Shown here: positions 13,730-38,582 of the stretch, in pieces
Position numbering within the stretch: the first letter of the stretch is position 1
Layout: each line of letters begins with the position of its first letter
NCBI RefSeq assembly: GCF_000375585.1
Contig: NZ_AQWP01000003.1
Location: 250,830-314,829, forward strand
Direction: 5' to 3'
DNA: 64,000 bases
Source of the DNA: Sinorhizobium meliloti 4H41
GTDB taxonomy: Bacteria; Pseudomonadota; Alphaproteobacteria; Rhizobiales; Rhizobiaceae
The notes under the pieces: model-generated
What the model saw: only the letters and a program-made list of their open reading frames with translations
The model's database searches: none
What the model was told of the DNA's origin: nothing
Made by a program: the position numbers and the translations under genes

Positions 13730-15100
13730 CTACGTGTCGCCACTCTTCGCGCCTGCCCGGTCGATAAAGTCCGCCCGATTGATCCCATGGCGCTGCAGCT
13801 TATCGTAAAAAGTCTTGCGGGGGATGCCGAGGGCTTGCAGAGTCTCCTTGACGTCGCCGCGGTGCTCCGTGAGAGCCTGCTTGAGGATATCGGCCTCGTA
13901 GCGTTCCAATCTTTCCGGCAGGGTTGCTCCGCTTGAGGCGGGCGCTGCGGCCGGAGCTCTCAGGTTTCCCTCCACCCCCAGCGCGACCCGTTCGGCGAAG
14001 TGCGAAAGCTCGCGCACATTGCCCGGCCAGGAATGCGTGGCCAGGTAGGCGCGCATGGCAGCCGAGATCGCGGGCACGTCGCGGCCGAAGCGTTCCGAGG
14101 CGCGGGCCAGGAAATGGGAGAAGAGGAGGGGGATGTCGTCGCGCCGTTCGCGCAAGGGCGGGATCGAGAGCGTCACGACATTCAGCCGGTAATAGAGATC
14201 TTCGCGGAAATCGCCGCGCGCGGCCGGATCGCCGAGGTCGACCTTGGCTGCGGCGACGACGCGGATGTCGACGGGACGGGTCAGGTTGGTGCCGAGCGGG
14301 GTGATCTCGCGTGCTTCAAGCACGCGCAGCATCTTAACCTGGGTTGCCGGCGGCATCGCCTCGATCTCGTCGAGGAAGAGGGTGCCGCCGTTCGCATGCT
14401 CGATCCTGCCGACCCGCTTCTTGACGGCGCCGGTAAAGGCGCCGGGCTCGTGGCCGAAGAGCTCGCTTTCGATGACCGTTTCCGGCAGAGCGCCGCAATT
14501 CAGTGCGACGAAGTTGCCGGTTCTGCGCCGGCTCCATTGGTGCAGCAGCGTGGCGACGACCTCCTTGCCGCTGCCCGTCTCGCCGGCGACCAGCACATCG
14601 ACATCGGTGTCGGCGATGTGTTTCAAGGTCTGGCGAAGCCGCTCCATGGCCGGCGTCTGGCCGATCAGCGGCAGTCCTTCGGAGGCGGCCTCGGCCGCGC
14701 GGCGCAGCGCCCGGTTCTCCATGACGAGCCGCCGTTTCTCCTCTGCGCGCCGGGCGCTCTGGACAAGACGGTCGGCGGCAAACGGCTTGGCGATGAAGTC
14801 ATAGGCGCCGTCCTGGATCGCCTGCACCGCCATCGGTATGTCGCCGTGTCCTGTGACAAGGATCATCGGCAGGTCCGGATCGAGCGCCAGCACCTTGCGG
14901 AAAAGGGCGAGCCCGTCCATGCCCGGCATGCGGATATCGCTGATGACGACGCCCGCGAAGTCGGCGGAAAGTTCGCCGAGCGCCTCCGTCGCGCTGGCAA
15001 AGGACGAGACGGTGAAGCCCGCGAGCTCTAGCGTCTGCTGCATCGCCTTGCGCAGATCGCGGTCGTCATCGATCAGGAACGCGGATGGGGCGGCGCTCAT
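13730..15100 (-). CDS. dctD: C4-dicarboxylate response regulator DctD (sigma-54 activator)
   Basis: 456 residues. Receiver domain (about 5-120) with the acidic pocket LIDDD, the phospho-acceptor Asp55 in [10 protein letters not shown] and the switch Lys in FIAKPF. The central AAA+ domain has Walker A GETGSGKE (173-180) and the sigma-54-contacting GAFTGA loop (220-225), and LFLDEIE as Walker B. A Fis-type helix-turn-helix lies at the C-terminus ([26 protein letters not shown]). When phosphorylated by DctB it activates dctA from the sigma-54 promoter at 17087. It starts 3 bases after the dctB stop, in one operon. Confidence 0.97.
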
Positions 15101-15103
15101 CGC

Positions 15104-16969
15104 TCAGGCCTTCTTGAGATTGACGGTAAATATCGTTCCGGAGGGACTGCTCTCGACCTCGATCGTGCCGCCATAGTCGGAGACGATCTCCTTGGAGATC
15201 GCGAGACCGAGGCCCAGCCCGTCTTCCTTCGAAGTGTTGAACGGCGTGAACAGCTCTTCGCGGACATCGGCCGCAATCCCCGGGCCATTGTCGGCGACGG
15301 TCAGCGCGATACCGCCGGCCACGTCCTCGCAGCGCACCCGGATCGCGCCGTTCTCGCTGTCGCCGATCGCTTCCAGCGCATTCTGCAGAAGGTTGATCAA
15401 GACCTGCTCCAGCCGGATGCGGTTGCCGAGTGCCTGGAGGTCATCGGGCGGCAGATCGATGCGTATTGCGTCCATCCGTCCGGCAAAGCGGCTTCGGAGC
15501 AGCATGAGCGCACCCTCGACGACCTCCTTCATCGCGGTCGGCCCGGCGGCGAAATGGCCCTTGCGGGCGAAGCGGCGCAGTTCGTCGGTGATGGCGCCGA
15601 CACGGTCGGTGAGTTCGGCGATGCTTTCCATGTTCTCGGCGGCGGTGGAGCTCTGGCCACGGTCTAGAAAGGTGCGGGCATTATCGGCATAGGCGCGGAT
15701 GGTGGCGACCGGCTGGTTGATCTCATGGGCAACCCCGGCCGCGACCTGGCCGAGGATCGCCAGTCGGTTCGCCTGGACGAGGTCCTGCTGCACGGCCTGG
15801 AGCTTCTCGGTGGTCTGCCGGTGGTCGGCGATCTCGGATTGGAGACGGTCGCGCGCCATGCGCAGGTCGCGCGTCCGCTCCTCGACGCTCGCCTCAAGCG
15901 CATTGCGGGCCAGCCGCTCCTCGGCGCTGCGCATGGCGACTACCTGGCGACGGCGCAGGAGCAATGCGGCAAGCGCGAGAAGCGGTACGAGCGTGGCAAG
16001 GGTGAGGAGCTGCGCTTCCCGCGCACCCGCGGCAAGCGGCGCCTTCAGCGGCGACAACTGCTCGAGCCGCCAGTTCGTCGACGGCACCATGGTTTCCACA
16101 CGCAGGAAGGTTGCGTTGGAGTCGCCCGGCAGCAGGGCGTCCAGCGTGGAGGAGCCATCGGGCCGCGCTTCGATCTTCCGGAAAGGCAGCGGCAGCAGCG
16201 GTGCATCGCCGAACTGCAGGCTTTCGCGGATGGGTGCGAGCCGGTCTTCGGGGATCGGCTTCGTCGTCATGAAGCGCCAGGAGGGCAGGCTGGTGATGAG
16301 GACGATGCCGCGCCGGTCGGTGACATAGGCCGGCTTGCCGGAGACCTGCCAATCCGCCTCGACCCCGTCGAATTCGAGCTTGGCGACGATCACCCCCAGC
16401 GGACCGCCGGACCCGTCGACGCGCCGGGAGATATAAAGCCCGGGCCGCTTGCTAACCGTGCCCATGGCGAAGTGTTCGGCCATGCCGTCGCGCACGGCGA
16501 GGCGAAAATAATCGCGGAAGGCATAGTCGTTGCCGACGAAGCTCGTCGGCTCCTGCCAATTGCTGGCCGCGACGGCCACGCCGTTCCGGTCGATCAGATA
16601 GATGACCGCGGCTTCGGCGCTTGCCGCCAAAGCCTCGAGCTTGCGGTTGATACGGTCGAGCGACTGCCTGTCCGGCGAAAGCAATGCCCCACGAATGGCT
16701 GCGTCATCGGCGAGGACAAGCGGCAGGGCGCGCTGCCGTTCCACGACTGCCCGAAGAAGCGAGGCTTTCAGGCTGGCGTCGATCCGGCTCTGGCCGGCAA
16801 GGCCGGCGAGCGCCTGCGACCGCCCGTAGTCACGCGCAAGAAGAAGGCCGGCCGCCAGAAGGACCAGCGCGACTGCCGCGAAAACCAGCCAGGACCGTCG
16901 GGCCCGGCTGCGAAGCGCATGCGGATCGCTCGCATCTGCAGGAAGTCTGACCATGCGAGCATTGTGCAT
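15104..16969 (-). CDS. dctB: C4-dicarboxylate sensor histidine kinase DctB
   Basis: 621 residues from ATG 16969; another in-frame ATG at 17020 would overlap the regulatory palindrome. Two transmembrane segments ([19 protein letters not shown] near the start and [18 protein letters not shown] around residues 320-340) flank a periplasmic double-PAS sensor domain that binds succinate, fumarate or malate. After a coiled linker come the H box [12 protein letters not shown] with His415 and the N, G1 and G2 boxes ([31 protein letters not shown]). It phosphorylates DctD. It is divergent from dctA. Confidence 0.96.
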
Positions 16970-16995
16970 GATTTCGCCCAGCACGCCAGCGTGTC

Positions 16996-17013
16996 TGTGC
17001 GGAAATCCGCACA
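16996..17013. promoter_or_regulatory. Upstream palindrome, probable DctD binding site
   Basis: Perfect inverted repeat TGTGCGGA-AA-TCCGCACA in the dctB-dctA intergenic region, about 75-90 bases before the dctA sigma-54 promoter. This is the position expected for a DctD enhancer. In rhizobia dctA has two such sites of unequal affinity; I could see only this clear one. Confidence 0.75.
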
Positions 17014-17086
17014 TATCCACGAACAGAAAGCGTGCGCCGCTCCCAAAAATCTCATGAATTCAATCGCATCGGCCTCCGCGGCAAAC

Positions 17087-17102
17087 TGGCACGCATGTTG
17101 CT
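17087..17102 (+). promoter_or_regulatory. Sigma-54 promoter of dctA
   Basis: TGGCACGCATGTTGCT matches the -24/-12 consensus TGGCAC-N5-TTGC exactly. Transcription should begin near 17113, leaving a leader of about 87 bases before the dctA ATG at 17200. It needs DctD-phosphate and RpoN. Confidence 0.95.
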
Positions 17103-17199
17103 CACCAGCTCCACAAGGCAGCCATTGCTGTCGATCTTCGGAAAGCGGCCCGGGAGGCCCGGCATGTTGCCGGACTGGGCCTGCCACGTGGAGGATATC

Positions 17200-18525
17200 A
17201 TGATCATCGAACATTCCGCGGAGGTCCGCGGCAAGACACCCCTTTACCGCCATCTCTATGTCCAGGTGCTGGCCGCGATCGCCGCGGGCATCCTGCTCGG
17301 GCATTTCTATCCGGACATCGGCACGGAGCTCAAACCGCTCGGCGACGCCTTCATCAGGCTCGTGAAGATGATCATCGCGCCGGTGATCTTCCTGACGGTC
17401 GCGACAGGCATTGCCGGCATGACCGATCTCGCCAAGGTCGGCCGCGTGGCCGGCAAGGCGATGATCTACTTTCTCGCCTTCTCCACCCTTGCCCTTCTCG
17501 TCGGCCTCGTCGTCGCAAACGTGGTCCAGCCGGGCGCGGGAATGCATATCGATCCGGCCTCGCTGGACGCCAAGGCGGTCGCGACCTATGCCGAGAAGGC
17601 GCACGAGCAGTCGATCACCGGCTTCCTGATGAACATCATCCCGACGACGCTTGTCGGCGCCTTCGCCGAGGGCGACATCCTGCAGGTCCTGTTCATCTCG
17701 GTGCTCTTCGGTATTTCGCTGGCGATCGTCGGCAAGAAAGCCGAGCCCGTCGTCGATTTCCTGCAGGCGCTGACGCTTCCGATCTTCCGGCTCGTTGCGA
17801 TCCTCATGAAGGCCGCCCCGATCGGCGCCTTCGGCGCCATGGCCTTCACCATCGGCAAGTACGGCATCGCCTCGATCGCCAATCTCGCCATGCTGATCGG
17901 TACCTTCTATCTGACGTCGTTTCTCTTCGTCTTCATCGTGCTCGGCGCGGTCGCACGCTATAACGGCTTCTCGATCCTCTCGCTCATCCGCTACATCAAG
18001 GAGGAGCTGCTGCTGGTGCTCGGGACGTCTTCCTCGGAGGCGGCGCTTCCGGGCCTCATGAACAAGATGGAGAAGGCCGGCTGCAAGCGCTCGGTCGTCG
18101 GTCTCGTCATTCCGACCGGCTATTCCTTCAACCTGGACGGCACCAACATCTACATGACGCTTGCGGCCCTGTTCATCGCCCAGGCGACCGATACGCCGCT
18201 CTCATACGGCGACCAGATCCTGCTGCTCCTCGTCGCCATGTTGAGCTCGAAGGGTGCGGCCGGCATTACGGGCGCCGGCTTCATCACGCTTGCCGCAACG
18301 CTCTCGGTCGTTCCCTCCGTGCCGGTCGCCGGCATGGCGCTGATCCTCGGCATCGACCGCTTCATGTCGGAATGCCGCGCCCTGACCAATTTCGTCGGCA
18401 ACGCGGTTGCGACGATCGTCGTGGCGAAGTGGGAAGGCGAGCTCGACCAGGCGCAGCTTTCCGCAGCTCTCGGCGGCGGGGCGTCTGCCGAAGCCATCCC
18501 GGCGCTCGTCCAGCCCGCCGAATAA
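17200..18525 (+). CDS. dctA: C4-dicarboxylate:cation symporter DctA
   Basis: 441 residues from ATG 17200 (RBS GGAGG 7 bases before); the frame is open upstream but the conserved protein starts [22 protein letters not shown]. It imports succinate, fumarate and malate and is required to feed bacteroids during nitrogen fixation. The dicarboxylate/amino acid:cation symporter signatures [44 protein letters not shown] and [20 protein letters not shown] are intact, with about eight membrane helices and two re-entrant loops. It is controlled by DctB/DctD and sigma-54. Confidence 0.98.
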
Positions 18526-18651: not shown

Positions 18652-19581
18652 TCAGATCCCGTGCAGCACCTGCGTCGCCTTCACTGCCGCCGAGGCCCGG
18701 TTTTCGACGCCGAGCTTCACATAGATCTGTTCGAGATGCTTGGTGACGGTGCGCGCGCTCAAGCCCAGGATCTCGCCGATGTCGCGGTTGGATTTCCCTT
18801 TGGCGATCCACAGCAGAACCTCGGACTCCCGCTGGGTGAGCCGGAAGTGCTGGCGCAGCGTTTCGTCGTCGCTCAAGCCGTTCTCGGCCGTCAGCCGGAA
18901 GAGGTATTCATTGGCGCCGACCGCGCCGAGATAGGAGATCTGCAGGCCCGTCTGGCTGGCGCGCTGCAGGGTGAAGGTCCCTTGCCTTTCGCCGGGACTG
19001 GTTTCCCGCTCCCGCATCCACTCGGCAATGCGCCCGGCGACGAAGGCGAGACCGTCGTCGCTGCCGGTGGCCGCGTTGACGAGACGGGTCGCCTGCGGCG
19101 TCGACCAGCGGACCGTTCCATCGCCTCGCACCGCCAGCAGATGCCGCCCCGCCGCGTCCAGGGCGACGCGGGCGCTCTGGGCGGAGCGCGCATTGGAGAG
19201 ATGGACGCGGATGCGGGCGCGCAGCTCGTCGATATTGATAGGCTTGGTCAGGTAATCGACGCCGCCGGCTTCGAGCGCCCGCACCACATGCTCCGTCTCG
19301 GTGAGGCCGGTCATGAAGACCACGGGCACCTGGGCGACGGAAGCATTCGACTTCAGCCGGGTGCAGGTGTCGAAACCGTCCATGCCGGGCATGACCGCAT
19401 CGAGCAGGATGATGTCCGGCGTGATGCGGTCGGCGATGTTGAGCGCCGCGTTGCCGGAGGTCGCGATCAATACGGAAAAGCCGGACTGTTCCAGCGCTTC
19501 GGTCAAAAAGCCGAGCGCCTCCGGTGAATCGTCGACGAGGAGTACGATATCTCGCACGTTCGCTGCCTCAGGCACGGGCAT
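18652..19581 (-). CDS. Response regulator with LuxR-type output
   Basis: 309 residues from ATG 19581, whose start overlaps the end of the upstream kinase gene by 14 bases. The N-terminal receiver has LLVDDSP, the phospho-acceptor in DIILLDAVMPG and the switch Lys in YLTKPIN. A middle region of about 90 residues (ALDAAGRHLLAVRGDGTVRWSTPQA) resembles a PAS-like fold. The C-terminal LuxR/FixJ helix-turn-helix reads LTQRESEVLLWIAKGKSNRDIGEILGLSARTVTKHLEQIY. The overlap makes it the obvious partner of the permease-kinase. Target genes are not evident from the sequence. Confidence 0.92.
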   Translation of the reverse strand: MPVPEAANVRDIVLLVDDSPEALGFLTEALEQSGFSVLIATSGNAALNIADRITPDIILLDAVMPGMDGFDTCTRLKSNASVAQVPVVFMTGLTETEHVVRALEAGGVDYLTKPINIDELRARIRVHLSNARSAQSARVALDAAGRHLLAVRGDGTVRWSTPQATRLVNAATGSDDGLAFVAGRIAEWMRERETSPGERQGTFTLQRASQTGLQISYLGAVGANEYLFRLTAENGLSDDETLRQHFRLTQRESEVLLWIAKGKSNRDIGEILGLSARTVTKHLEQIYVKLGVENRASAAVKATQVLHGI

Positions 19582-22500
19582 TCGCCTCCCCGGCGAGCAG
19601 GCGTTTGAGGAAGGCGTCATAGCCCGCGAGGTCGAATGCCCCGACATAGGCGCGCGCCGCCTCGGCGAAGGCTCGGTTGTCCGGGTTCAGGGCGATCTCC
19701 GTCAATTTTGCTTCGATGCCCCTCACGTAGCCGATTTCGCCGAGCTCGATCAATTCCTTCAAATGATGATGGCCGGGGCTCGCCACCGCAGGGGTCATGC
19801 CGGTGCCGGACCTTTCCTGCGGGCCGTCGTCGTAGATCCATTCGAGTTTCAGGTGGATCGCGAGCTTGTCGGTGAGCTGGCGCAGGCCGAAGGGCTTGGC
19901 AAGCGCATCGTTGTGGCCGATGGCGCCGGCGGCCGAGCCGTCGCCGATATTGGCCGAAAGCATGATCGCCGGCGCGCTCTGGCCGCCTTCCCTCAGACGC
20001 ATCACCAGATCCCAGCCGCTCATGCCGGGCATGGAGATGTCGATCAGGAACAGGTCCGGTTTCGTATGTTCGACGAGCGCCAGGCAGGCCGCCCCGCTCG
20101 CCGCCGCAAGAACGGTGAAACCGAGTGGCGCGAGCAGCTCGCCCATCAGGTCGCGGTGGTCCGCATTGTCGTCGACGACGACGATCGTCCGACGTGGTTC
20201 TCGATAGGACTTGATCCTGCGGACCGGGTCCTTGAGCGCGGCGGGCCGGTCGACGGCAGAGAGCATCAGCCGGACCTTGAAGGCCGTGCCCTTGTCCTTC
20301 TCGCTGGTGACGGAGATTTCGCCGCCGAGCGTCTGGGTGAGCAGGCGGGTGATGGTCAGGCCGAGGCCGAGGCCCGGCATGCGATATTCCGCCTCGCCGC
20401 GCTGAAAGGGCTCGAAGATCCTGGGCAGGTCCTTCTCGCCGATGCCGCGGCCGCTATCCTCGATGGTGAAACTTGCAACCTGGCTGCGATAGGCGACGTC
20501 GAAGCGGATATGCCCCCGTTCCGTGAACTTCAGGGCATTGGAGAGCAGGTTGACGAGGATCTGCCGCAGGCGCTTGTCGTCGGTCCGCACATATTGCGGC
20601 AGCGAGGCTGCGCGGTTGTGCTCGAAGGCGATGCCCTTGGCCTGCGCCTGCGGGCGGAACATGTCGACGATCTGGTCCAAAAAGTCCTGAATGTTGATCT
20701 CGTTGGAATAGACCTGCAGCTTGCCGGCTTCGATCTTGGAAATGTCGAGGAGGCCGTCGATCAGTCCGGAGAGATGGTCGGCGCTGCGCCTGATCGCCTT
20801 GATCGCGCCCTGCCGCGGCGGCGGTATCGTCTCGTCGCGCTCGAGGATCTGGGCGTAGCCGAGCACCGCGTTGAGCGGCGTGCGCAGTTCGTGGCTCAGG
20901 CCCACGACATAGCGGCTCTTCGCGCGATTGGCCGACTCCGCCCTTTCCTTCGCGTCCTGCAGCGCCGCGTCCGTCTTCTTGTGGGCGGCGATCTCCTTCA
21001 GAAGAGCCGTGTTCTGCCGGGAGGATTCCTCTTCCGCAACGACCCGGCTGTCATGGGCAAGCACGTAGAACCAGGACACGACGCCGGCAAGAATGGCGAA
21101 GACGAAAAAGACGATGGCGATGGTCCGCTGGACGACGTCGGCGGTCTCGGGAGAGGCGGCCGTGGTCTGGTGAGCGATCATCGCCAGGATCACGCCGATG
21201 CCGGTAATAGAGATCACCGCCGAAACCGCGTAACGGCCGAGCCTTGTCGCGAGCTTTGCGACGACCGTTTCGGGCAACACCGCCTTGGCCACGGTGGCGA
21301 CCTGCGCGTTCAGACGCGCCTTCGGCTTGCACATGTCGTGGCAGCGGCTGTCGAGCGAACAGCAGAGCGAGCAGATCGGCGCCGCATAGGCCGGGCACCA
21401 GGCCATGTCCTCCGGTTCGAACGGGTGCTCGCAGATCGAGCAAGTGATCTCGTTTTCGCGGAGCCAGCTCTTGCGCGGCTTGCGGGCGAGATAGAATTTC
21501 CCCTCCGTCCACCAGGCGATCAGCGGCGAGACGACGAAAGCCGTGACGAGTGCGATATAGGGTGCGAGCGAGGTGGCGATTTCGCCCGCCGCGCCGAAAT
21601 GCGCGACGAGAGCAAAGAGCGTCGACACGCCCATGGTGCCGAGGCCGACGGGATTGATGTCGTAAAGATGGGCGCGTTTGAACTCGATTCCGGGCGGGGC
21701 GAGACCGAGCGGCTTGTTGACGAAGAGATCGGCCGAGATCGTCGAGAGCCAGGCCATGGCGACGATCGAAAAGATACCGAGCGTCTCCTCCAGCAGACGA
21801 TAGATGCCGAGCTCCATCAGGAGGAGCGCGATCGCCACGTTGAAGACCAGCCAGATGACGCGGCCCGGATGGCTGTGGGTGAGCCGCGAGAAGAAGTTCG
21901 ACCAGGCGAGCGAGCCCGCATAGGCGTTCATCACGTTGATCTTGAGCTGCGAGACGACGACGAAGGCTGCCATCAGCAGGAGCGCGGCCGTGTCCGATGG
22001 GAAGATGTAGCCGAAGGCCGTGTAATACATCTGCGCCGGGTCGGCGGCCCTGGTCGAGGGAACGCCGGTACTGAGCGCCAGGACGACGAGAAAGGAGCCG
22101 GCCAGCAGCTTCGGCGCGCCGACGATCACCCAGCCGGAGCCGGCAAGAAAGACGGCGATGCGGTGGCGGAGCTTGCGCTCGCCGTCAGGCGGCAGGAAGC
22201 GCAGGAAGTCCACCTGCTCGCCGATCTGCGCCGTCAGAGCGAAGATGACCGCCGAGGCAGCGCCGAATTCGACGAGATGGAACGGCGCGAGCGTGCCAGG
22301 AGGCCCCGATGTGTGATGGATGCCCGCATAGGCGAGCCACAGGCCGACCTTCTCCCAGTCCGCAAACGCGATGAAGACGAAGGGAAGAATGTTCAGGACG
22401 ATCCAGAAGGGCTGCGTGACGAGCTGGAACCGGCTGATCAGCTTCACGCCATGGGTGACCAGCGGGATCACCATGACGGCGCTGACGATGTAGCCGATCC

Positions 22501-22948
22501 AGAGCGGTATGCCGAACGCAAGCTCCAGCGCCCCGGACATGATCGAGGCTTCGATCGCGAAGAGGATGAAGGTGAAGCTCGCATAGATCAGCGAGGTGAT
22601 CGTCGAGCCGATATAGCCGAAGCTCGCGCCGCGCGTGAGAAGGTCGATGTCGACGCCGTGACGAATGGCATAGCGGCTGATCGGCAGGCCGACGAGAAGG
22701 ATCATCAGGCTCGCGACGAGGATCGCGACGATGGCGTTGGTCGTGCCGTAGGACATGGTAATGGCACCGCCGATGGCTTCCAGCGCCAGGAAGGAGATGG
22801 CGCCGATCGCCGTCTGCGAAATGCGCGCCGAGGAGAAGCGCCGCGCGCTCTTGGCGGTGAAGCGCAACGCATAGTCTTCGAGCGTCTGGTTGGCGACCCA
22901 GCGGTTATATTCTCGCCGAACGGGAATGATGCGCTGGCGTGCCGCCAT
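19568..22948 (-). CDS. NCS1-type permease / hybrid histidine kinase fusion
   Basis: 1126 residues. The first ~480 residues form a polytopic membrane domain of the NCS1 cytosine/purine/hydantoin permease type (ISFLALEAIGGAITMSYG, GASFGYIGSTITSLIYASFTFILFAIEASIM, about 12 helices). A cysteine-rich segment follows (Cys503, Cys506, then CPAY, CSLCC and RCHDMC up to about 541), probably metal binding. Two further helices (560-635) lead by a coiled linker to the HisKA H box SHELRTPLN (His686), an HATPase domain (LLSNALKFTE, DSGRGIGE, GLGLGLTI), and a receiver with Asp970 (LFLIDISMPGM). A helical tail may act as a phosphotransfer module. It probably senses, or couples transport to sensing of, a nucleobase-like compound; that is inference. 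Confidence 0.92.
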   Translation of the reverse strand: MAARQRIIPVRREYNRWVANQTLEDYALRFTAKSARRFSSARISQTAIGAISFLALEAIGGAITMSYGTTNAIVAILVASLMILLVGLPISRYAIRHGVDIDLLTRGASFGYIGSTITSLIYASFTFILFAIEASIMSGALELAFGIPLWIGYIVSAVMVIPLVTHGVKLISRFQLVTQPFWIVLNILPFVFIAFADWEKVGLWLAYAGIHHTSGPPGTLAPFHLVEFGAASAVIFALTAQIGEQVDFLRFLPPDGERKLRHRIAVFLAGSGWVIVGAPKLLAGSFLVVLALSTGVPSTRAADPAQMYYTAFGYIFPSDTAALLLMAAFVVVSQLKINVMNAYAGSLAWSNFFSRLTHSHPGRVIWLVFNVAIALLLMELGIYRLLEETLGIFSIVAMAWLSTISADLFVNKPLGLAPPGIEFKRAHLYDINPVGLGTMGVSTLFALVAHFGAAGEIATSLAPYIALVTAFVVSPLIAWWTEGKFYLARKPRKSWLRENEITCSICEHPFEPEDMAWCPAYAAPICSLCCSLDSRCHDMCKPKARLNAQVATVAKAVLPETVVAKLATRLGRYAVSAVISITGIGVILAMIAHQTTAASPETADVVQRTIAIVFFVFAILAGVVSWFYVLAHDSRVVAEEESSRQNTALLKEIAAHKKTDAALQDAKERAESANRAKSRYVVGLSHELRTPLNAVLGYAQILERDETIPPPRQGAIKAIRRSADHLSGLIDGLLDISKIEAGKLQVYSNEINIQDFLDQIVDMFRPQAQAKGIAFEHNRAASLPQYVRTDDKRLRQILVNLLSNALKFTERGHIRFDVAYRSQVASFTIEDSGRGIGEKDLPRIFEPFQRGEAEYRMPGLGLGLTITRLLTQTLGGEISVTSEKDKGTAFKVRLMLSAVDRPAALKDPVRRIKSYREPRRTIVVVDDNADHRDLMGELLAPLGFTVLAAASGAACLALVEHTKPDLFLIDISMPGMSGWDLVMRLREGGQSAPAIMLSANIGDGSAAGAIGHNDALAKPFGLRQLTDKLAIHLKLEWIYDDGPQERSGTGMTPAVASPGHHHLKELIELGEIGYVRGIEAKLTEIALNPDNRAFAEAARAYVGAFDLAGYDAFLKRLLAGEANARA

Positions 22949-23065
22949 GGTCCCTCGTCATCTCGCAGTGCCGGCCGAATGCGCCAGCCGCCCCTGTCGT
23001 AACACGGACGAGCGCCCCGGGAAATTGTTGCATTGCGGAAAACGTCGGCAGACCGATGAGCCAGT

Positions 23066-26000
23066 CTAGATGGGCCCACGCGCCTCGCTTCGTGTCGCCC
23101 CTTTCCTGTCCTCGAACCCAGCGAGGGTCTGCCTTGCCTTGGCCTCCCAGGTCCTGGCACCCTGCCTGCGCGCCAGTGCCATTGCACGCTTGAGCGGCCT
23201 GTACCCTCGCTCAAGCTTGCTGTCGCCTCTCACGAGCAATTCGGCCTGTAGTCGCAACAGCTCGGCCGTGAAATAGTTCTCGCCCGTTTTCCTTGCGAGT
23301 TCCAGGGCTTGACCGATAGCTTGTGACGCTTTCGTATCGAATCCAAGCTGCAGATAACCGCTGGCGAGCATTCCCAAATAGCAGGTCTTGTCGATTTCCT
23401 GCTCGCCCATGTTATCGCAAACATGGCGCATCTGCTGGAGGCCCGATACGTCCTTGCGGGTCATGGCGAGCAGCCATCCGGAGAAGAAGGAGCCCATGTT
23501 CAGCCAAAGCTGAAAACCGTTCCTTCTCGCCAGCGGCACGAGTTCGTCCGTCAAGCGCTCCATCGTTTCGGGGTCGTTGCGAAGGGCCATCAGGATGCAG
23601 CCGTTGCCGAGGCATGCGGCGAGGCGGTAGTCGGTCTGCTTTCTCGCATCGGCTTCCGCCTGCCGGAAGAGCGAAAGCGCGCCCTGCTCTTCCCCCAGAA
23701 GCTCAAGCGTCCAGGAGAGATAGATCATCGCCATGCTCGGAAAATCGCTGCCGATCCGATCTGCCTTCTCGCGATGCCGAAGGGCATCTTCGAGCAGGGC
23801 CTTCGCCTTGCGGAACTGGCCGCGAGAAAAGGCGCACATGCCCCGGAACTGCTTTCCAAGCACGAGCGCCTTGAGGTGGTCCCGTTTTTGCCCGATCTCC
23901 AGGAGCTGATCGCTCGCCCATTCGGCGTCCTTGAGGGAGGCGGAGTTGAAGGCCGTGCCGAAAAGCCCGTCCAGGGCCCTGATAGCCGCCTCCGGATCGC
24001 CCGTCGCTTCGCTGAGGCGCATCACGTTGCGGTACGCAGCGCTTCCCTCGCGCGTCATGTAACCGAACGTTGCGTAGAGGACATCACCGCGCTCCAGCTC
24101 GAGGCGGAGTTCCATACCATCGCGTTCGCGGGAGGGGGCCAGCTTGCGGGCGCATTCGAGCCCTCTGGCGAACATATTGGCCGCCTCCTGCTTCGCCCAC
24201 GTCGCTGCGAGTTTCAAACCGGCCGTGAGCCAGTGTTCAGCGGCACGCTCGTACAATCCGGCCTCGTCCAGATGCTGGGCCAGGACCTCCGGATGATCGG
24301 CTGCGGCCGACGGCTCCGTTCGCTCCATCGCATCCACGACCAGTGCATGGAGCTGTCTACGCCTGTCCCGCAGCAGAGCGCCGCTCGCCGCCTCCTGAAG
24401 AAGCGCGTGGGTGAAGCTGTATCTCGGCCAGTCCGAGAAGGGTTGCGGAGCGACCAGGCCGACTGCGGTGAGGCGCTCCAGTTCCGGCTTCAATGTTTCG
24501 ATCGGCATGTCGGCAACGCTGGCGAGCATCCGGACGTCGAATTCGCGGCCGATGATCGCGGCGACCTGCGCTATGGTCTTGCCCGGGCCAAGCTTGTCGA
24601 GCCGTGACAGGAGCGAGGACTGGAGCGAGTTCGGCACCGAAAGACCGGCGTCGTGAGCGCCCGATCGATGAGGGCCCGATGAGGCGGCGAGCTCAGAGGT
24701 TGACCGTGCCAGCTCCTCGAGAAAGAGCGGCACCCCTTCGGCCTTTCGCAGAACGGCATGCGTAAGGTCCGTCCCCAGCAGCACCCCGGTTGCAGCCTTC
24801 CGGACGAGTTCGTTCGCTTCGTCGCGCGACAGGCGCGCGAGCCTGATCTCTTCGATGGAACTCTTTCGGCGTTCAGATTTCAGCGCGCCGTCGCGGGAGG
24901 TCACAACGACGAGCAGGGGGAGATCCGATACTTCTTCGATCAGTCGGTGGAGCAGATTTGCCGATGACGGATCGATCCATTGTTCGTCCTCGACGGCAAG
25001 CAGCATTGGGCCTGCTCCGGCCTGGCGCAGCAACCAGTCGATATATGTTCGCCGGACCGTCAACTGCTGCTGGGACGGCGGAAGCGCGGATGGCGGGTAG
25101 TCAGACTGCTCGACGTTCAGCAATCGGGCGAAGATCGGAAAGGAGTCCGCGATCGGCACCTTGCTCGCCGAGAGGGCGGCCTCCAGTTTGCTGGCGGCAA
25201 TGGCCGGCGGATCGGCGCCGGATATCCCCTCTTCCTGGCGAAACAGTTGAAGGAAAGGGAAGAGCGCGCTGTTGGCGTAGGCCGACGAGCACTGGGCGGT
25301 AAGCGTCTTCACGCCGGAAAGCTCTTCTTTCACCTCGAAGAGCAGCCGCGACTTGCCTATGCCCGGCTCGCCGCTGATGAGGACCGCTCTTCCGCGCCGT
25401 TCCCGAGAGACCCTCCGCCAGATTTCCGCGATCTGTGCGATCTCGCTTTGGCGGCCGACAAGCGCGGTCAGATGACCTTTGCGGGCGAACCTGCTGCCGA
25501 CGGAAATCGGCTGATCGGCGCGCCACAGGCGAACGGGGGTGCTGAAGCCTTTCAGGATCGTTTCGCCAAGATCGCTGAACAGGAAGGAGCCGTGCGCCAT
25601 CTGGCAGGTGGTCTGATCGGTCAGGATCGTCTGCGGCGCTGCCATCGCTTCAAGCCGCTGGGCGAGATTTGGGACAGGGCCAAAGGCGACGGTGGAAACG
25701 CCGGCCGGCGCCCCCTCGATGTCACCCACCACGACAAGGCCGCTTGCAATGCCGATCCTCACATTGAGAGGCGAATGGTCTGGCGTCTCGACCTGAGGCG
25801 CCACGCGCAGAATGTCGAAGGCCAGCTCGAGTGCCCTTTCCGCGTCATCCTCCTCGGCGATCGGATAGCCGAACAGGACCTGCAACGCGTCGCCGACATA
25901 GTTCGCGACAAAGCCGCCATGTGATTTCGCGAGCCCGTTGCAGGTGTTGAGGTAGGTGCGCGTGAGGACGCTGAAGTCCTCGGGGTCGAGCCTCGCCGCA

Positions 26001-26269
26001 TAATCCGTGGAGCCGACCATGTCGCAGAAAAGGATGGTCAGTTGCCGGCGTTCGGGAAGCCTCTTCTCGGCGAGGTCGGGCGAAGGAGTCTTCTCCATGG
26101 CCGCGATTGCGGCGATGAGCTTGCGACGCTGGCCGATCGGGATGCGCATTTCCCGGAGGTCGGCTTCCGTAAGCAGGTGCAGGCTCTCGAAATCGACACG
26201 GGCGCGCGCGAATGTTTGCTCGAGATCGCCGAGCCCGATGTTCTGCAGCCATTTTCCGACATCGCTCAT
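23066..26269 (-). CDS. SAM-domain class III nucleotidyl cyclase with AAA ATPase and TPR region
   Basis: 1067 residues from ATG 26269. Residues 1-62 form a SAM domain (VGKWLQNIGLGDLEQTFARARVDFESLHLLTEADLREM, given here in parts). A class III cyclase domain (about 70-230) follows: LTILFCDMVGST carries the first metal Asp, NYVGDALQVLFGYP the second, and VPNLAQRLEAMA the Asn/Arg region. The motif GDA where GDG is common is a small deviation. Next is an AAA/STAND ATPase with Walker A GEPGIGKS (residues 300-307), then about 500 residues of TPR-like helices. Members make cAMP or cGMP; the substrate is not certain. Such cyclases are abundant in Sinorhizobium. Confidence 0.93.
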   Translation of the reverse strand: MSDVGKWLQNIGLGDLEQTFARARVDFESLHLLTEADLREMRIPIGQRRKLIAAIAAMEKTPSPDLAEKRLPERRQLTILFCDMVGSTDYAARLDPEDFSVLTRTYLNTCNGLAKSHGGFVANYVGDALQVLFGYPIAEEDDAERALELAFDILRVAPQVETPDHSPLNVRIGIASGLVVVGDIEGAPAGVSTVAFGPVPNLAQRLEAMAAPQTILTDQTTCQMAHGSFLFSDLGETILKGFSTPVRLWRADQPISVGSRFARKGHLTALVGRQSEIAQIAEIWRRVSRERRGRAVLISGEPGIGKSRLLFEVKEELSGVKTLTAQCSSAYANSALFPFLQLFRQEEGISGADPPAIAASKLEAALSASKVPIADSFPIFARLLNVEQSDYPPSALPPSQQQLTVRRTYIDWLLRQAGAGPMLLAVEDEQWIDPSSANLLHRLIEEVSDLPLLVVVTSRDGALKSERRKSSIEEIRLARLSRDEANELVRKAATGVLLGTDLTHAVLRKAEGVPLFLEELARSTSELAASSGPHRSGAHDAGLSVPNSLQSSLLSRLDKLGPGKTIAQVAAIIGREFDVRMLASVADMPIETLKPELERLTAVGLVAPQPFSDWPRYSFTHALLQEAASGALLRDRRRQLHALVVDAMERTEPSAAADHPEVLAQHLDEAGLYERAAEHWLTAGLKLAATWAKQEAANMFARGLECARKLAPSRERDGMELRLELERGDVLYATFGYMTREGSAAYRNVMRLSEATGDPEAAIRALDGLFGTAFNSASLKDAEWASDQLLEIGQKRDHLKALVLGKQFRGMCAFSRGQFRKAKALLEDALRHREKADRIGSDFPSMAMIYLSWTLELLGEEQGALSLFRQAEADARKQTDYRLAACLGNGCILMALRNDPETMERLTDELVPLARRNGFQLWLNMGSFFSGWLLAMTRKDVSGLQQMRHVCDNMGEQEIDKTCYLGMLASGYLQLGFDTKASQAIGQALELARKTGENYFTAELLRLQAELLVRGDSKLERGYRPLKRAMALARRQGARTWEAKARQTLAGFEDRKGATRSEARGPI

Positions 26270-26316
26270 CGTACCCCCGTCACGTGACGCGAAGGTTCGG
26301 CACCTCAACTTGCGCT

Positions 26317-30680: not shown

Positions 30681-30891
30681 GGAGCGTACCGCTCCTTCGC
30701 GTCTGCCGCGGTAACGACCTGGATCCGCGGCAGAAAACCCCGGGCGGTAAGCCCAAGCTTCCTGCTTCCCCCCGGCACCTACGTAGAATGACGTATGTGC
30801 AGTGCAGCGCGGCTGCCCGATGATCCCCGAGCAACGGCCATGGAGAACGGCCACTTGCCTTGCGGCGATCAGAACAAGGGGGTTCAATCAG

Positions 30892-32184
30892 ATGACTATC
30901 AGGGCACGCGTCACCGGCGCATTTCTCGCTGCCGTCCTTTCGACGACGGCGTTCAACGGCGCCTTTGCGGCCGACGACACGATCAAGGTCGGCATCCTGC
31001 ATTCGCTTTCCGGCACCATGGCGATCTCCGAAACGACGCTCAAGGACGCCATGCTGATGCTGATCGAGGAGCAGAACAAGAAGGGCGGCCTGCTCGGCAA
31101 GAAGCTGGAAGCGGTCGTCGTCGACCCGGCCTCGGACTGGCCGCTCTTTGCCGAAAAGGCGCGCGAGCTCGTCTCCGTCGACAAGGTGTCCGCCGTCTTC
31201 GGCTGCTGGACGTCGGTGTCGCGCAAATCCGTGCTGCCGGTCTTCGAAGAGCTGAATTCCATCCTCTTCTATCCGGTCCAGTACGAGGGCGAGGAAAGCC
31301 AGCGCAACGTCTTCTATACGGGCGCCGCTCCCAATCAGCAGGCTATTCCCGCCGTCGACTATCTGATGGAGAACGAGGAAGTCGAGCGCTGGGTGCTCGC
31401 CGGCACCGATTACGTCTATCCGCGCACGACCAACAAGATCCTCGAGGCCTACCTGATCTCCAAGGGCGTCGCGCCCGAGGACATCATGATCAACTACACA
31501 CCTTTCGGCCATTCCGACTGGCAGACGATCGTTTCCGACATCAAGAAGTTCGGCTCGGCCGGCAAGAAGACCGCGGTCGTCTCGACAATCAACGGCGACG
31601 CCAACGTGCCGTTCTACAAGGAGCTTGCCAATCAGGGGATCAAGGCCGAGGACATCCCGGTCGTCGCCTTCTCTGTCGGCGAGGAGGAACTTGCCGGCCT
31701 CGATACCGGACCGCTCGTCGGACACCTCGCTGCCTGGAACTATTTCCAGTCGGTCGACAACCCGGCCAATGCCGAGTTCATCGAGACCTGGCAGGCCTAC
31801 ACCAAGAACGACAAGCGGGTGACCAACGACCCGATGGAAGCCCATTATATCGGCTTCAATATGTGGCTGAAGGCAGTCGAGAAGGCCGGCACCACGGATA
31901 CCGATGCCGTGCTCGACGCCATGATCGGGGTCTCGGTACCGAACCTTTCGGGCGGCTATTCGACGATGATGCCGAACCACCACATCACCAAGCCCGTGCT
32001 GATCGGCGAGATTCAGTCCGACGGCCAGTTCGAAACGGTCTGGGAAACGCCCGGCCTCGTCGTCGGCGACGAATGGTCGGACTACCTGCCGGACTCGAAG
32101 GACCTGATCTCCGATTGGCGCGCGCCCATGTCCTGCGGCAACTTCAACGTGGCCACCGGCAAGTGCGGCGGCAAGGGTTCCTGA
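30892..32184 (+). CDS. urtA: Urea/short-chain amide ABC transporter substrate-binding protein
   Basis: 430 residues from ATG 30892, with a signal peptide MTIRARVTGAFLAAVLSTTAFNGAFA. It is a type I periplasmic binding protein of the leucine/amide family, with IKVGILHSLSGTMAISETTLKDAMLMLIEE (in parts) and the UrtA-specific region FGCWTSVSRKSVLPVFEE, FYPVQYEGEE and GAAPNQQAIPAVDYL. The protein captures urea or short-chain amides (the latter called FmdD in methylotrophs). Four genes for the rest of the transporter follow. The 140-base gap before urtB holds two hairpins that probably lower downstream expression relative to this abundant binding protein. Confidence 0.94.
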   Translation: MTIRARVTGAFLAAVLSTTAFNGAFAADDTIKVGILHSLSGTMAISETTLKDAMLMLIEEQNKKGGLLGKKLEAVVVDPASDWPLFAEKARELVSVDKVSAVFGCWTSVSRKSVLPVFEELNSILFYPVQYEGEESQRNVFYTGAAPNQQAIPAVDYLMENEEVERWVLAGTDYVYPRTTNKILEAYLISKGVAPEDIMINYTPFGHSDWQTIVSDIKKFGSAGKKTAVVSTINGDANVPFYKELANQGIKAEDIPVVAFSVGEEELAGLDTGPLVGHLAAWNYFQSVDNPANAEFIETWQAYTKNDKRVTNDPMEAHYIGFNMWLKAVEKAGTTDTDAVLDAMIGVSVPNLSGGYSTMMPNHHITKPVLIGEIQSDGQFETVWETPGLVVGDEWSDYLPDSKDLISDWRAPMSCGNFNVATGKCGGKGS

Positions 32185-32207
32185 TTTCATGACGAAAGAC
32201 TTGCTAA

Positions 32208-32246
32208 GGGAGCGGTCCGGGTCGGGTCGCTCCCCCAGACGCCTCT
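32208..32246 (+). terminator. Hairpin after urtA, partial terminator
   Basis: GGGAGCG (32208-32214) and CGCTCCC (32228-32234) pair around a 13-base loop, followed a little later by CTCTTTTC. It resembles a weak intrinsic terminator that would leave urtA more abundant than urtBCDE. Confidence 0.5.
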
Positions 32247-32275
32247 TTTCATGACGAACCGCTAGCTCGAAATCC

Positions 32276-32307
32276 CCTCCGTCCGAATGCTTCCCTTCGG
32301 ACGGAGG
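32276..32307 (+). promoter_or_regulatory. Second hairpin in the urtA-urtB gap
   Basis: Perfect 12-base-pair stem, CCTCCGTCCGAA (32276-32287) with TTCGGACGGAGG (32296-32307), loop of 8. It lies 20 bases before the urtB start. It may protect the upstream mRNA end or affect urtB translation. Confidence 0.5.
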
Positions 32308-32326
32308 ACTGCAAGGCGAGAGACGA

Positions 32327-33940
32327 ATGTACCGCATCATCCAAACCGTGCTGGCTGCCCTGTTCCTCTTCGTTGCGATGGCTCCGGGGCTTCGCGCGGA
32401 AGAGGGACTGCGCGATCTGGTGAACGCGCTCGGCGAGGCGAAGCTGTCCGAGATGGACGAGCATATCGCGGCACTGGCAAGAACCGGAAGGCCCGAAGCC
32501 GTCGCCATCCTCGAGGCGCTCGGTGAAGGCGGGCTCTATGCCCGCAAGGCGGACGGCCAGGTCTTCCTGACGAAGGAGAGCGGTTCGAACCTGACCCTCT
32601 CGGATCCGATCTCCGGCGACAGCGCCGGCGAAGCGCCGAAGGCGGCACTTTCGAAGATCAGAGTGAACAACAGCGTGCGGCGCGCCGTGCGCACCGCCCT
32701 CGGCAGCCTGACGCTCCTCAGTCCCGATCGAAATCAGCGCCTCAGGGCTGCGCAGTCGGTGCTGCAATCGCCCGATCCCGACGCGCTTGGCGCCATCGAG
32801 AGTGCGCTCGCTGCCGAGAAGGACGGAGCCGTTCGTGCGGTCCTCGAACAGGCGCGCGCCACGATGCTTCTTCTCTCCGAGCGGCCAGTCGAGGAGAAGA
32901 AGGAGGCGGTGCGGCTGCTGGAGGAAAGCGGCGGCCGCGAGGCGCTGCCGATCCTTTCTGCCGCGCTTCTCTCCGCCGACGAAAGCCTGAAGCCGGACAT
33001 CGAGGCGGCGCTCGCCAGCATCGAACAGGCGCAAGCCTTCTGGAATGCGGGCCAGAACATATGGTACGGCCTGTCGCTGGGCTCGGTGCTGCTGCTTGCG
33101 GCGATCGGCCTCGCCATCACCTTCGGAGTCATGGGCATCATCAACATGGCGCATGGCGAGATGGTGATGCTCGGCGCGTATACGACATTCCTCGTTCAAG
33201 ATGTCGTGCGCACCTCCTTTCCTCATCTTTTCGATTGGTCCCTGGCAATCGCGCTGCCGCTCGCCTTTCTTGTCACAGGCGCCGTGGGCCTCGCACTGGA
33301 ACGCGGCGTCATCCGCTTCCTCTATGGTCGCCCGCTCGAAACGCTGCTTGCCACCTGGGGCATATCGCTCATCCTGCAGCAGACGGTGCGGACGATCTTC
33401 GGCCCCACCAACCGCGAAGTCGGCAATCCGTCCTGGATGTCCGGCGCCTTCGAGATCGGCGGACTGGCGATCACCTGGAACCGCCTCTGGATCATCGTCT
33501 TTGCGCTTGCCGTGTTTGCAGCACTTCTCTTTCTTCTCAAGAAGACGCCGATGGGCCTGCAGATGCGCGCCGTAACGCAAAACCGGCGCATGGCCTCCTC
33601 CATGGGCATCCGCACGCCCTGGGTCGATGCGCTGACCTTCGCGCTCGGCTCCGGCATTGCAGGCATTGCGGGTGTGGCGCTTTCGCAGATCGACAACGTC
33701 TCGCCGAACCTCGGGCAGGGTTACATCATCGACAGCTTCATGGTCGTGGTCTTCGGCGGCGTCGGCAATCTCTGGGGAACGCTGGTCGGCGCCTTCTCGC
33801 TCGGCATCCTCAACAAGTTCCTCGAGCCCTATGCCGGCGCCGTGCTCGGCAAGATCCTCGTGCTCGTGCTGATCATCCTCTTCATCCAGAAGCGGCCGCG
33901 GGGGCTCTTCGCACTCAAGGGCCGGGCGGTGGAAGCATGA
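32327..33940 (+). CDS. urtB: Urea/short-chain amide ABC transporter permease UrtB
   Basis: 537 residues. A signal-like first segment and a soluble N-terminal extension of about 210 residues (EEGLRDLVNALGEAKLSEMDEHIAAL and alpha-helical repeats) precede the LivH-type permease domain, as in other UrtB proteins. The permease begins near YGLSLGSVLLLAAIGLAITFGVMGIINMAHGEMVMLGAYT and ends with IDSFMVVVFGGVGNLWGTLVGAF and FIQKRPRGLFALKGR. It forms the channel together with UrtC. Its stop overlaps the urtC start (ATGA). Confidence 0.95.
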   Translation: MYRIIQTVLAALFLFVAMAPGLRAEEGLRDLVNALGEAKLSEMDEHIAALARTGRPEAVAILEALGEGGLYARKADGQVFLTKESGSNLTLSDPISGDSAGEAPKAALSKIRVNNSVRRAVRTALGSLTLLSPDRNQRLRAAQSVLQSPDPDALGAIESALAAEKDGAVRAVLEQARATMLLLSERPVEEKKEAVRLLEESGGREALPILSAALLSADESLKPDIEAALASIEQAQAFWNAGQNIWYGLSLGSVLLLAAIGLAITFGVMGIINMAHGEMVMLGAYTTFLVQDVVRTSFPHLFDWSLAIALPLAFLVTGAVGLALERGVIRFLYGRPLETLLATWGISLILQQTVRTIFGPTNREVGNPSWMSGAFEIGGLAITWNRLWIIVFALAVFAALLFLLKKTPMGLQMRAVTQNRRMASSMGIRTPWVDALTFALGSGIAGIAGVALSQIDNVSPNLGQGYIIDSFMVVVFGGVGNLWGTLVGAFSLGILNKFLEPYAGAVLGKILVLVLIILFIQKRPRGLFALKGRAVEA

Positions 33941-35112
33941 TCACCTCGTTTCTCGTCAAATCGCTGGATCGGACCATCGTCACGGCCGTCGCGATCCTGC
34001 TGGCGCTGGCCGTCATCGTTCCCGCGCTCAATCTCCTGACCGCCCCGGACCACCCGCTGCATGTGCCGACCTATCTGGTTTCACTCTTCGGCAAGTACCT
34101 GACCTATGCGCTCCTGGCTCTGGCGCTCGATCTCGTCTGGGGTTTCTGCGGCATTCTCTCGCTCGGGCACGCTGCCTTCTTCGCGCTCGGCGGCTATGCC
34201 ATGGGCATGTATCTGATGCGCCAGATCGGCTCACGCGGCTCCTACGGCAATCCGCTGCTGCCGGACTTCATGGTCTTTCTCAACTGGAAGGAGCTGCCCT
34301 GGTTCTGGCACGGCTTCGACATGTTCTGGTTCGCAGCGCTGATGGTGGTGCTGGTGCCGGGCCTTCTTGCCTTCGTCTTCGGCTGGTTCGCCTTCCGATC
34401 GCGCGTCAACGGGGTCTATCTCTCGATCATCACCCAGGCGATGACCTATGCGCTGCTGCTCGCCTTCTTCCGCAACGATATGGGTTTCGGCGGCAATAAC
34501 GGGCTCACGGATTTCAAGGACATCCTGGGCTTCAACATCCAGGCAGACGGAACGCGTGCGGCGCTTTTCGCCGCCTCCGCGCTGGCGCTCGCCGTTTCGC
34601 TCGTCGTCACCTCTGGCATCGTCCGCTCGAAATTCGGAAAGGTGCTGGTGGCGCTGCGCGACGCGGAAAGCCGCACCCGCTTCCTCGGCTATCGCGTCGA
34701 GCACATGAAGCTCTTCGCCTTCACGGTCTCGGCCATGATGGCAGGCGTCGCCGGCGCGCTCTACGTACCGCAGGTCGGCATCATCAATCCGGGCGAGTTC
34801 GCTCCCGCCAATTCGATCGAGGTGGTCATATGGACGGCGGTCGGCGGGCGCGGCACGCTGATCGGACCGATCGTCGGCGCGATCCTCGTCAACGGCGGAA
34901 AAAGCATCTTCACCGCCGCCTTCCCCGAATTCTGGCTCTTTGCGCTCGGCGGGCTCTTCGTCCTCGTCACGCTTTTCCTGCCGAAGGGGGTGGTCGGCAC
35001 GGCGCAGAACTATCTGGCAAGCCGGCGCGCTTCCCACGCGGCGGCCCGGAAGGAAAGCGAGAGCGAAAAAGCGGCGACCCTTGCGGCCGCCGAAACGATG
35101 GCCGCGGAGTGA
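33937..35112 (+). CDS. urtC: Urea/short-chain amide ABC transporter permease UrtC
   Basis: 391 residues from ATG 33937, overlapping the urtB stop by 4 bases. LivM-type permease with about ten membrane segments; the conserved DLVWGFCGILSLGHAAFFALGGYAMGMYL and VALRDAESRTRFLGYRVEHMKLFAFT and WTAVGGRGTLIGPIVGA are present. A basic, alanine-rich tail (ASRRASHAAARKESESEKAAT) extends into the cytoplasm. It pairs with UrtB. Confidence 0.95.
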   Translation: MITSFLVKSLDRTIVTAVAILLALAVIVPALNLLTAPDHPLHVPTYLVSLFGKYLTYALLALALDLVWGFCGILSLGHAAFFALGGYAMGMYLMRQIGSRGSYGNPLLPDFMVFLNWKELPWFWHGFDMFWFAALMVVLVPGLLAFVFGWFAFRSRVNGVYLSIITQAMTYALLLAFFRNDMGFGGNNGLTDFKDILGFNIQADGTRAALFAASALALAVSLVVTSGIVRSKFGKVLVALRDAESRTRFLGYRVEHMKLFAFTVSAMMAGVAGALYVPQVGIINPGEFAPANSIEVVIWTAVGGRGTLIGPIVGAILVNGGKSIFTAAFPEFWLFALGGLFVLVTLFLPKGVVGTAQNYLASRRASHAAARKESESEKAATLAAAETMAAE

Positions 35113-35117
35113 TCGCC

Positions 35118-35870: not shown

Positions 35871-35888
35871 GCGGAAGGAATTGAACCG

Positions 35889-38579: not shown

Positions 38580-38582
38580 GAC

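Follow-up and report, generated by a model that had tools for sequence, protein, structure and literature searches.

Introduction

Sensor kinases with a permease-like domain of the LeuT fold are known from the SLC5/STAC kinases, to which CbrA, CrbS and RpuS belong: CrbS is described as a hybrid kinase and CrbR as a regulator of the LuxR type (PMC9100948), and for CbrA a lysine in the sodium site Na2 is reported (PMC13022988). Among nucleobase-type transporters of the NCS1 family, CodB has an aromatic sandwich of Trp108 and Phe204 that holds the ring ligand and is described as a family-wide feature, and the hydroxyl ligands of its Na2 site are Thr278 and Thr279 on transmembrane helix (TM) 8 (PMC9379551). 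Here, we describe a gene of Sinorhizobium meliloti 4H41 (assembly GCF_000375585.1) in which a diverged NCS1-like permease, an eight-cysteine module and a hybrid histidine kinase form one chain. The gene lies at 19568-22948, on the minus strand, of a stretch of 64,000 nucleotides (contig NZ_AQWP01000003.1, positions 250,830 to 314,829), which is called the window below. As judged from the sequence of the protein and of its neighbors, it probably encodes a two-component sensor for urea (in other branches of the family for short, formamide-like amides) whose ancestor would be a permease handling compounds of this kind.

Results

Gene and domain organization

The open reading frame (ORF) at 19568-22948 is real and encodes 1126 amino acids from an ATG in the register at which its relatives start in the alignment. 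As a preliminary description made from the letters of the window had it, the chain consists of a transporter, a cysteine-rich segment, two further helices, a kinase and a receiver. The permease domain (about residues 40-485; 21494-22831, from profile, fold and alignment) looks complete, with 12 membrane helices according to our own reading of hydropathy and of an AlphaFold2 model. It is followed by the eight-cysteine module (residues 503-541; 21326-21442) and a two-helix membrane hairpin (residues 569-639; 21032-21244, from hydropathy and AlphaFold2). The HisKA (residues 677-742; 20723-20920), HATPase_c (residues 790-896; 20261-20581) and Response_reg (residues 922-1029; 19862-20185) domains, all on the minus strand as is the entire gene, scored far over the Pfam cut-offs. 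In an alignment of 142 rows, made up of 140 kinase-linked proteins and two without a kinase (L044 and L046; loci carry L numbers and genomes G numbers), position 686 is His in 140 rows and a gap in two, and position 970 is Asp in 139, Arg in one and a gap in two; these are the very residues named in the preliminary description. The features of a hybrid histidine kinase, i.e., HisKA with its His, HATPase and a receiver with its Asp, are thus all present. The C-terminal tail (about residues 1058-1115; 19604-19777) is conserved in the alignment; a canonical Hpt domain was ruled out there, as no His is invariant and the best-kept one, His1062, is His in 107 of 139 rows.

Directly downstream, and overlapping the 3' end of the kinase gene by about 14 bases, a response regulator composed of a receiver and a LuxR-type helix-turn-helix was recognized from its ORF and domain match (18652-19581, minus strand; the mechanical ORF extends to 19647). 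For 129 loci, 1.2 kb or more of downstream sequence was available, and a same-strand regulator of the LuxR type follows the kinase in 122 of them. The identical architecture was found again in relatives as distant as about 47% identity, which excludes a chance origin.

Residues 1-630 showed 98.1% identity to a locus of the S. meliloti 1021 plasmid pSymB that starts at 1622168. Since the published PhaR site of SMb20609 was placed next to it, at 1622073-1622093 (PMC12542648), SMb20609 is the S. meliloti orthologue; the same source terms it a "putative sensor kinase" and counts it among functionally uncharacterised targets. This PhaR site recurs with one mismatch ahead of the sensor gene in the window (23023-23043, minus strand), and the carbon storage state may gate the nitrogen sensor.

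Genomic neighborhood of the sensor genes

The neighborhood of the sensor gene was surveyed across 222 homologous frames, of which 205 were unique and 192 of these at least 700 amino acids long (L210 and L211 overlap, and one L210 frame is cut by its end). At least 8 kb of upstream sequence was available for 115 kinase loci: 75 genome contigs, 33 further genomes, six plasmids and the window. Genes for the urea transporter component UrtA (threshold 55 or 58% identity), formamidase FmdA (55%) or the urease subunit UreC (55%) were present within 12 kb at 110 of them, namely urtA at 101, FmdA only at three and UreC only at six, with five having none. The urtA gene is divergent and upstream in 100 of the 101 cases and lies within 0.8 kb in 58. 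Outside the close relatives L049-L126, 38 of 42 loci had one of the three genes. Because the gene usually adjoins genes for the uptake or breakdown of urea or formamide, a sensor for urea and short amides is suggested; the nitrogenous ligand proposed in the preliminary description, which had suggested a survey for catabolic genes nearby, is in line with this. One Klebsiella plasmid and two Paraburkholderia plasmids have the sensor transcribed divergently from a urtABCDE cluster that includes formamidase; the Paracoccus gene diverges from formamidase with AmiS/UreI. A search for a sigma-54 promoter upstream of urtA gave 29 of 154 stretches scoring at least 8 as compared to 30 of 154 random stretches.

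In the window, urtABCDE occupies 30802-36584 on the plus strand, 8 kb from the sensor gene, and each of the five products scored above the curated cut-off of its urea-transporter model: urtA (30802-32184; 571.6 bits against a cut-off of 492.75 for the urea UrtA model, where the true start may lie inside this frame), urtB (33101-33940), urtC (34054-35112), urtD (35142-35870) and urtE (35889-36584). No second close UrtA is encoded in the source genome, where the next match has 30% identity. The urease of this genome is encoded on another contig, and for formamidase a partial match of 41% was the only one. Genes seem to have inserted between the sensor and urtABCDE in the window, given the short distance found at most urtA loci. 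Between them, at 23066-26308, a large protein is encoded that combines a SAM, a class III cyclase and an AAA domain.

Urea-linked and amide-linked sensors

Two types of UrtA were distinguished and named "amide" and "urea" after the adjoining enzymes: loci with the Klebsiella/Paraburkholderia cluster type have FmdA in 20 of 47 cases and UreC in none, and loci with the Sinorhizobium type have FmdA in none of 107 and UreC in 23, many of these loci having short flanks. Among the 205 unique frames, 118 were labeled urea, 54 amide, none both and 33 neither. The paralogues are partially split along this line: in six genomes with two sensors (L159/L160, L190/L191, L192/L193, L194/L195, L025/L161 and L031/L206) one copy stands at a formamidase locus and the other at a urease or urea-type locus. 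In a tree of the permease domain, the labels needed five changes over 93 labeled rows; with unlabeled rows as a third group 16 changes were needed, compared to a mean of 45.2 after shuffling, a value as low being reached in none of 200 shufflings. The tree comprised 108 of the 205 frames, hand-picked to thin out close relatives; near-copies favor clustering in such a comparison.

Permease domain and its ancestry

The preliminary description had called the N-terminal domain an NCS1 permease. In this respect, its descent was supported by profile and fold, and the hallmarks of the family were not kept. Pfam contained no family matching residues 1-630 even at an E-value of 10, NCBIfam gave no match for residues 1-505, and a search of the PDB with residues 1-505 as a single sequence returned chance matches only. 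The NCS1 label therefore relies on profile and fold evidence. When a family profile of ten sequences was compared to PDB sequences, CodB was the sole significant match (E 1.8e-5), over the first half of the permease only, and a one-target hhalign comparison with E. coli CodB gave E 1.2e-5 and a probability of 81, again for the first half. For the kinase-less relative L046, matches to the cytosine permease model PRK11017 (E 1.6e-16) and to the ncs1 model TIGR00800 (E 4.3e-11) extended through most of the protein, and neither reached the curated cut-off.

The AlphaFold2 model reached a pTM of 0.77 from 46 rows, residues 1-38 being unreliable and residues 481-550 having block means of 59-68. With this model, the best five Foldseek matches were Mhp1 and CodB (E 8e-8 to 3.7e-7, TM-score by target 0.62-0.72), and other LeuT-fold families followed close behind: NIS at rank 6, SGLT2 at rank 7 and the urea transporter DUR3 at rank 15. 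A different transporter family was thus not indicated by either approach, and the permease domain is most likely a remote relative of NCS1 descent, as far as sequence profiles and a predicted fold can tell.

The two-sided aromatic sandwich is broken in all of 105 aligned relatives: position 129, the counterpart of CodB Trp108 on the TM3 side, has Phe in 72 rows, Leu in 33 and Trp in none, and position 238, which corresponds to Phe204 on the TM6 side, is Leu in 102 and Met in three. Half of the sandwich, the Phe on the TM3 side, hence remains in 72 rows. The threonine pair of the Na2 site is absent as well, Lys336 standing at the position of CodB Thr278 in 105 of 105 rows and Ile337 following in 104; TM8 was placed in this register by three alignments that included intermediate sequences, and a further one moved it by three residues. 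At the pocket positions Glu133, Gln241, Lys336 and Asn338, all 105 rows agree. Since the features of sandwich and sodium site are changed, we refer to a diverged NCS1-like permease and not to an ordinary member of NCS1.

Stand-alone permeases

Twelve homologues without a kinase (40-49% identity) were found beside the enzymes in question. Eight of them adjoin urease; they come from the order to which G1012 belongs (85 genomes) and from a plasmid of Acinetobacter. The other four, of another kind, sit in four genomes between sensor and formamidase, the usual place of urtABCDE. In eight genomes with stand-alone permeases no UrtA match above 27% identity was obtained at E 1e-20, two of these genomes being only 81% and 87% complete; four comparison genomes had a UrtA match at 70-74% identity. 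Since urease or formamidase adjoins them and their genomes have no close UrtA, the stand-alone proteins are probable permeases for urea or formamide. Glu133, Gln241, Lys336 and Asn338 are also present in them (Glu133 is not covered in L295, a urease-linked fragment). The strongest argument for the permease family itself handling urea and formamide comes from these loci. The more distant stand-alone permeases L046, L048 and L154 showed no urea or amide neighbors by the same tests, and L046 adjoins genes of the hydantoinase/oxoprolinase type.

Cysteine module and hairpin

The module contains C503, C506, C518, C526, C529, C530, C536 and C540, and a further cysteine, Cys955, is located in the receiver. 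All eight are kept in 140 of 140 kinase-linked proteins, so that the conservation on which the preliminary description had made its metal site depend was found throughout. The four formamidase-linked stand-alone permeases likewise keep all eight, and the eight urease-linked ones keep only C503, C506, C526 and C529. Two hydrophobic helices follow the module; hydropathy places them at 570-597 and 601-634, the AlphaFold2 model at 569-598 and 600-639. A profile of the module alone, run on 398 genomes, detected 57 places at E 5.6e-21 or better, in frames of 894-1365 amino acids, before the next match dropped to E 2.8e-4; by comparison of coordinates by eye, all 57 lie inside permease-kinase places of the phylum survey. 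Searching Pfam with the module up to E 10 returned no convincing family, and solved zinc folds were rejected as convincing counterparts, namely C2H2 knuckles (best E 0.0042, 16 positions), CRIPT and B-box. The module probably binds metal, in the form of two zinc ions, and by analogy with cross-brace zinc folds two four-cysteine sites could be present, the second of which may serve coupling. A 618-residue relative without permease (L153, 7857-9713) has a cysteine-rich N-terminus, two hydrophobic helices, a kinase and a receiver.

Distribution of the family and further genes of the window

Within the order, 127 of 397 genomes matched with an E-value of 1e-100 or below, some of them by a fragment that the end of a contig cuts off, and 138 at E 0.001. 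At the level of the phylum, 52 of 398 sampled genomes matched at 1e-200 or better (tally 72), and in the class of genome G613 16 of 321 did (tally 20), one of the 16 by a stand-alone permease only and two being already part of the phylum sample; the genome counts are our own reading of printed lists and include the source genome for order and phylum. Plasmid records matched 539 times, 520 of them over at least 80% of the query, and 342 of the 539 were from Klebsiella, at about 47% identity among the full-length rows listed. In one Klebsiella plasmid (L041, 8909-19264), the urtABCDE-formamidase cluster stands with sensor and regulator divergent from it. A short form of 877-899 amino acids (L156, L157, L158 and L045) has formamidase and AmiS/UreI adjoining.

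Two further regions of the window deserve mention. The sensor operon is followed immediately, at 13730-18525, by genes for a dicarboxylate symporter (dctA), a sensor kinase (dctB) and a regulator resembling DctD (dctD). RepB- and ParA-like partition genes adjoin urtABCDE at 37518-39842, and the region looks like that of megaplasmid replication.

Discussion

We propose that urea binds to the NCS1-like domain and perhaps passes through it. The pocket would lack the two-sided sandwich and the hydroxyls of the sodium site and would instead use the invariant Glu133, Gln241 and Asn338, with Lys336 at the sodium position. The switch between inward- and outward-facing states would move the module, probably holding two zinc ions, together with the membrane hairpin, and this movement would reset the dimeric HisKA domain at His686 and subsequently the receiver at Asp970. 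From there, the signal would be passed to the LuxR-type regulator encoded just downstream, which would activate urtABCDE and, at other loci, the genes of urease or formamidase. We infer each of these steps, from ligand binding to transcription, as well as the binding of metal.

A broader proposal goes along with this and is put forward only tentatively, as we would be inclined to expect that some part of it fails: an undescribed branch of the NCS1 fold may handle urea and formamide without sodium, both as stand-alone permeases that replace UrtABCDE and as a transceptor that drives a hybrid kinase via a new eight-cysteine dimetal coupling domain, in which C503, C506, C526 and C529 would hold the module to the permease and C518, C530, C536 and C540 would form its link with the kinase or with a partner.

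Several observations weigh against a sensor of urea and amides. Five of the 115 loci (L102, L127, L213, L214 and L215) have none of the genes surveyed, although a 38% AmiF-like match is found near L127; moreover, L212 and L213, two copies in one genome, adjoin RuBisCO, LysR and unrelated genes with no link to urea or amides. Most of the 115 loci are from related alphaproteobacteria and are therefore not independent. In the window itself, other genes separate the sensor from urtABCDE, and the sole regulatory input reported for SMb20609 is PhaR, a regulator of carbon storage (PMC12542648), which gives no hint of urea. The sequence support for NCS1 is confined mainly to the first half of the permease. 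The amide label depends on FmdA next door only, and both amide-type UrtA proteins that were tested passed the urea UrtA model. Furthermore, four of ten two-copy genomes compared (G165 and G282 stood outside the ten) lack the split between urea and amide, namely L146/L158, where both copies are amide-linked, L210/L211, tandem copies at one amide locus, L212/L213, where neither kind of link is seen, and L032/L207, where one copy has no label. Finally, there is no column of the alignment by which urea-linked and amide-linked sensors can be told apart: the best candidate, column 195, had an overlap of 0.15, yet many different residues occur on both sides, the clades (four urea, 14 amide) having been assigned by hand from the tree. 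The pocket thus gives no direct sign of specificity. One pocket may, on the same grounds, accept the carbamoyl or amide group that urea and formamide have in common.

The association of sensor and transporter could also be read in such a way that the permease is a mere membrane anchor or a platform for a partner, the signal being the working state of UrtABCDE or of a neighboring stand-alone permease, conveyed by protein contact. This fits with urtA being near 101 of 115 sensors and with the four loci that encode a stand-alone permease with the full module divergently from the sensor, and there is precedent in DcuS/DctA, in which a companion transporter is described as co-regulator (PMC4280142). 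We consider it unlikely, given that an anchor would not need the four pocket residues, which are invariant across the 105 rows and shared by the stand-alone permeases; besides, six loci show urease only and no urtA in the stretch examined, where in the case of L195, one of the six, a UrtA is encoded shortly beyond that stretch, at a distance of about 10 kb.

Urease needs nickel. The complete conservation of the cysteines in 140 of 140 kinases, together with this demand, might point to the module as the main sensor, of redox state or of zinc or nickel levels, with the permease only tuning its response. We regard such a role as quite improbable: the same module is found in formamidase-linked sensors, eight urease-linked stand-alone permeases have lost half of it, and its spacing resembles that of structural zinc folds by eye, even though no convincing match was obtained in PDB or Pfam. 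Very little, lastly, speaks for the nucleobase, purine, hydantoin or allantoin ligand that the preliminary description had suggested, and this part of it is not upheld. The NCS1 fold and remote sequence kinship would suit such a sensor, as would the distant L046 beside its hydantoinase/oxoprolinase-type genes, but the sandwich is broken throughout, despite the TM3-side Phe kept in 72 rows, and the neighbors at 110 of 115 loci serve urea and short-amide uptake and hydrolysis. A sensor of urea or short amides derived from a permease for these compounds accordingly remains our preferred explanation.

Many bacteria as well as Klebsiella plasmids carry this sensor, whose permease and linker match no Pfam family. 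If the proposal is true, a regulator of urea and formamide use is named and a new class of bacterial permeases for both compounds is predicted, and the stand-alone permeases and the sensor offer a ready comparison for how a transport cycle is turned into a signal. Among the open-access papers listed, with most subscription journals outside, no NCS1-kinase fusion and no such urea sensor was recognized. The urtABCDE-formamidase cluster of Klebsiella plasmids has been published (PMC13060141, PMC5506382); the main text of the former does not contain the term "kinase", and that of the latter contains neither "histidine kinase" nor "two-component". In Ectopseudomonas, a hybrid kinase and a LuxR regulator are reported beside a second urtABCDE, in passages that make no mention of the permease (PMC13296017). 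GrtK of Burkholderia glumae was considered as a member of the same family and ruled out, being described as a PilS-type kinase of 427 amino acids (PMC12918730).

In comparison with the SLC5/STAC kinases, the present sensor shares the fusion of a permease-like LeuT-fold domain to a kinase, and the pair of hybrid kinase and LuxR-type regulator is like CrbS and CrbR. The lysine that aligns with an Na2 ligand here has, in terms of sequence, its parallel in the lysine of CbrA, a permease-kinase of another family. Unlike in that group, the permease is NCS1-like, NCS1 structures outranking NIS, SGLT and DUR3 by fold, as the preliminary description had anticipated in setting the fusion apart; the neighbors are urea and amide genes; and the place of STAC, a four-helix domain under the membrane, is taken by an eight-cysteine module and a hairpin, a distinction drawn by description. 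CodB and Mhp1 are similar in fold and remotely in sequence, but possess the two-sided sandwich and the Na2 threonine pair and have neither a cysteine module nor a kinase. The fmdCABDEF genes of Methylophilus methylotrophus likewise combine formamidase with uptake genes for short-chain amides and urea, and the system is reported to be induced by both formamide and urea; in contrast to the loci described here, the passage on it names only a putative positive regulator and mentions no permease-kinase (PMC10781810). A related case is Ks-Amt5, in which a nitrogen-source transporter domain has likewise been turned into a kinase sensor (PMC5764959; PMC12918730). That protein contains an ammonium transporter and thus a domain of a different family with a different ligand. 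The sensor of S. meliloti would, if our reading holds, add another way in which kinase sensors have arisen from transporters.

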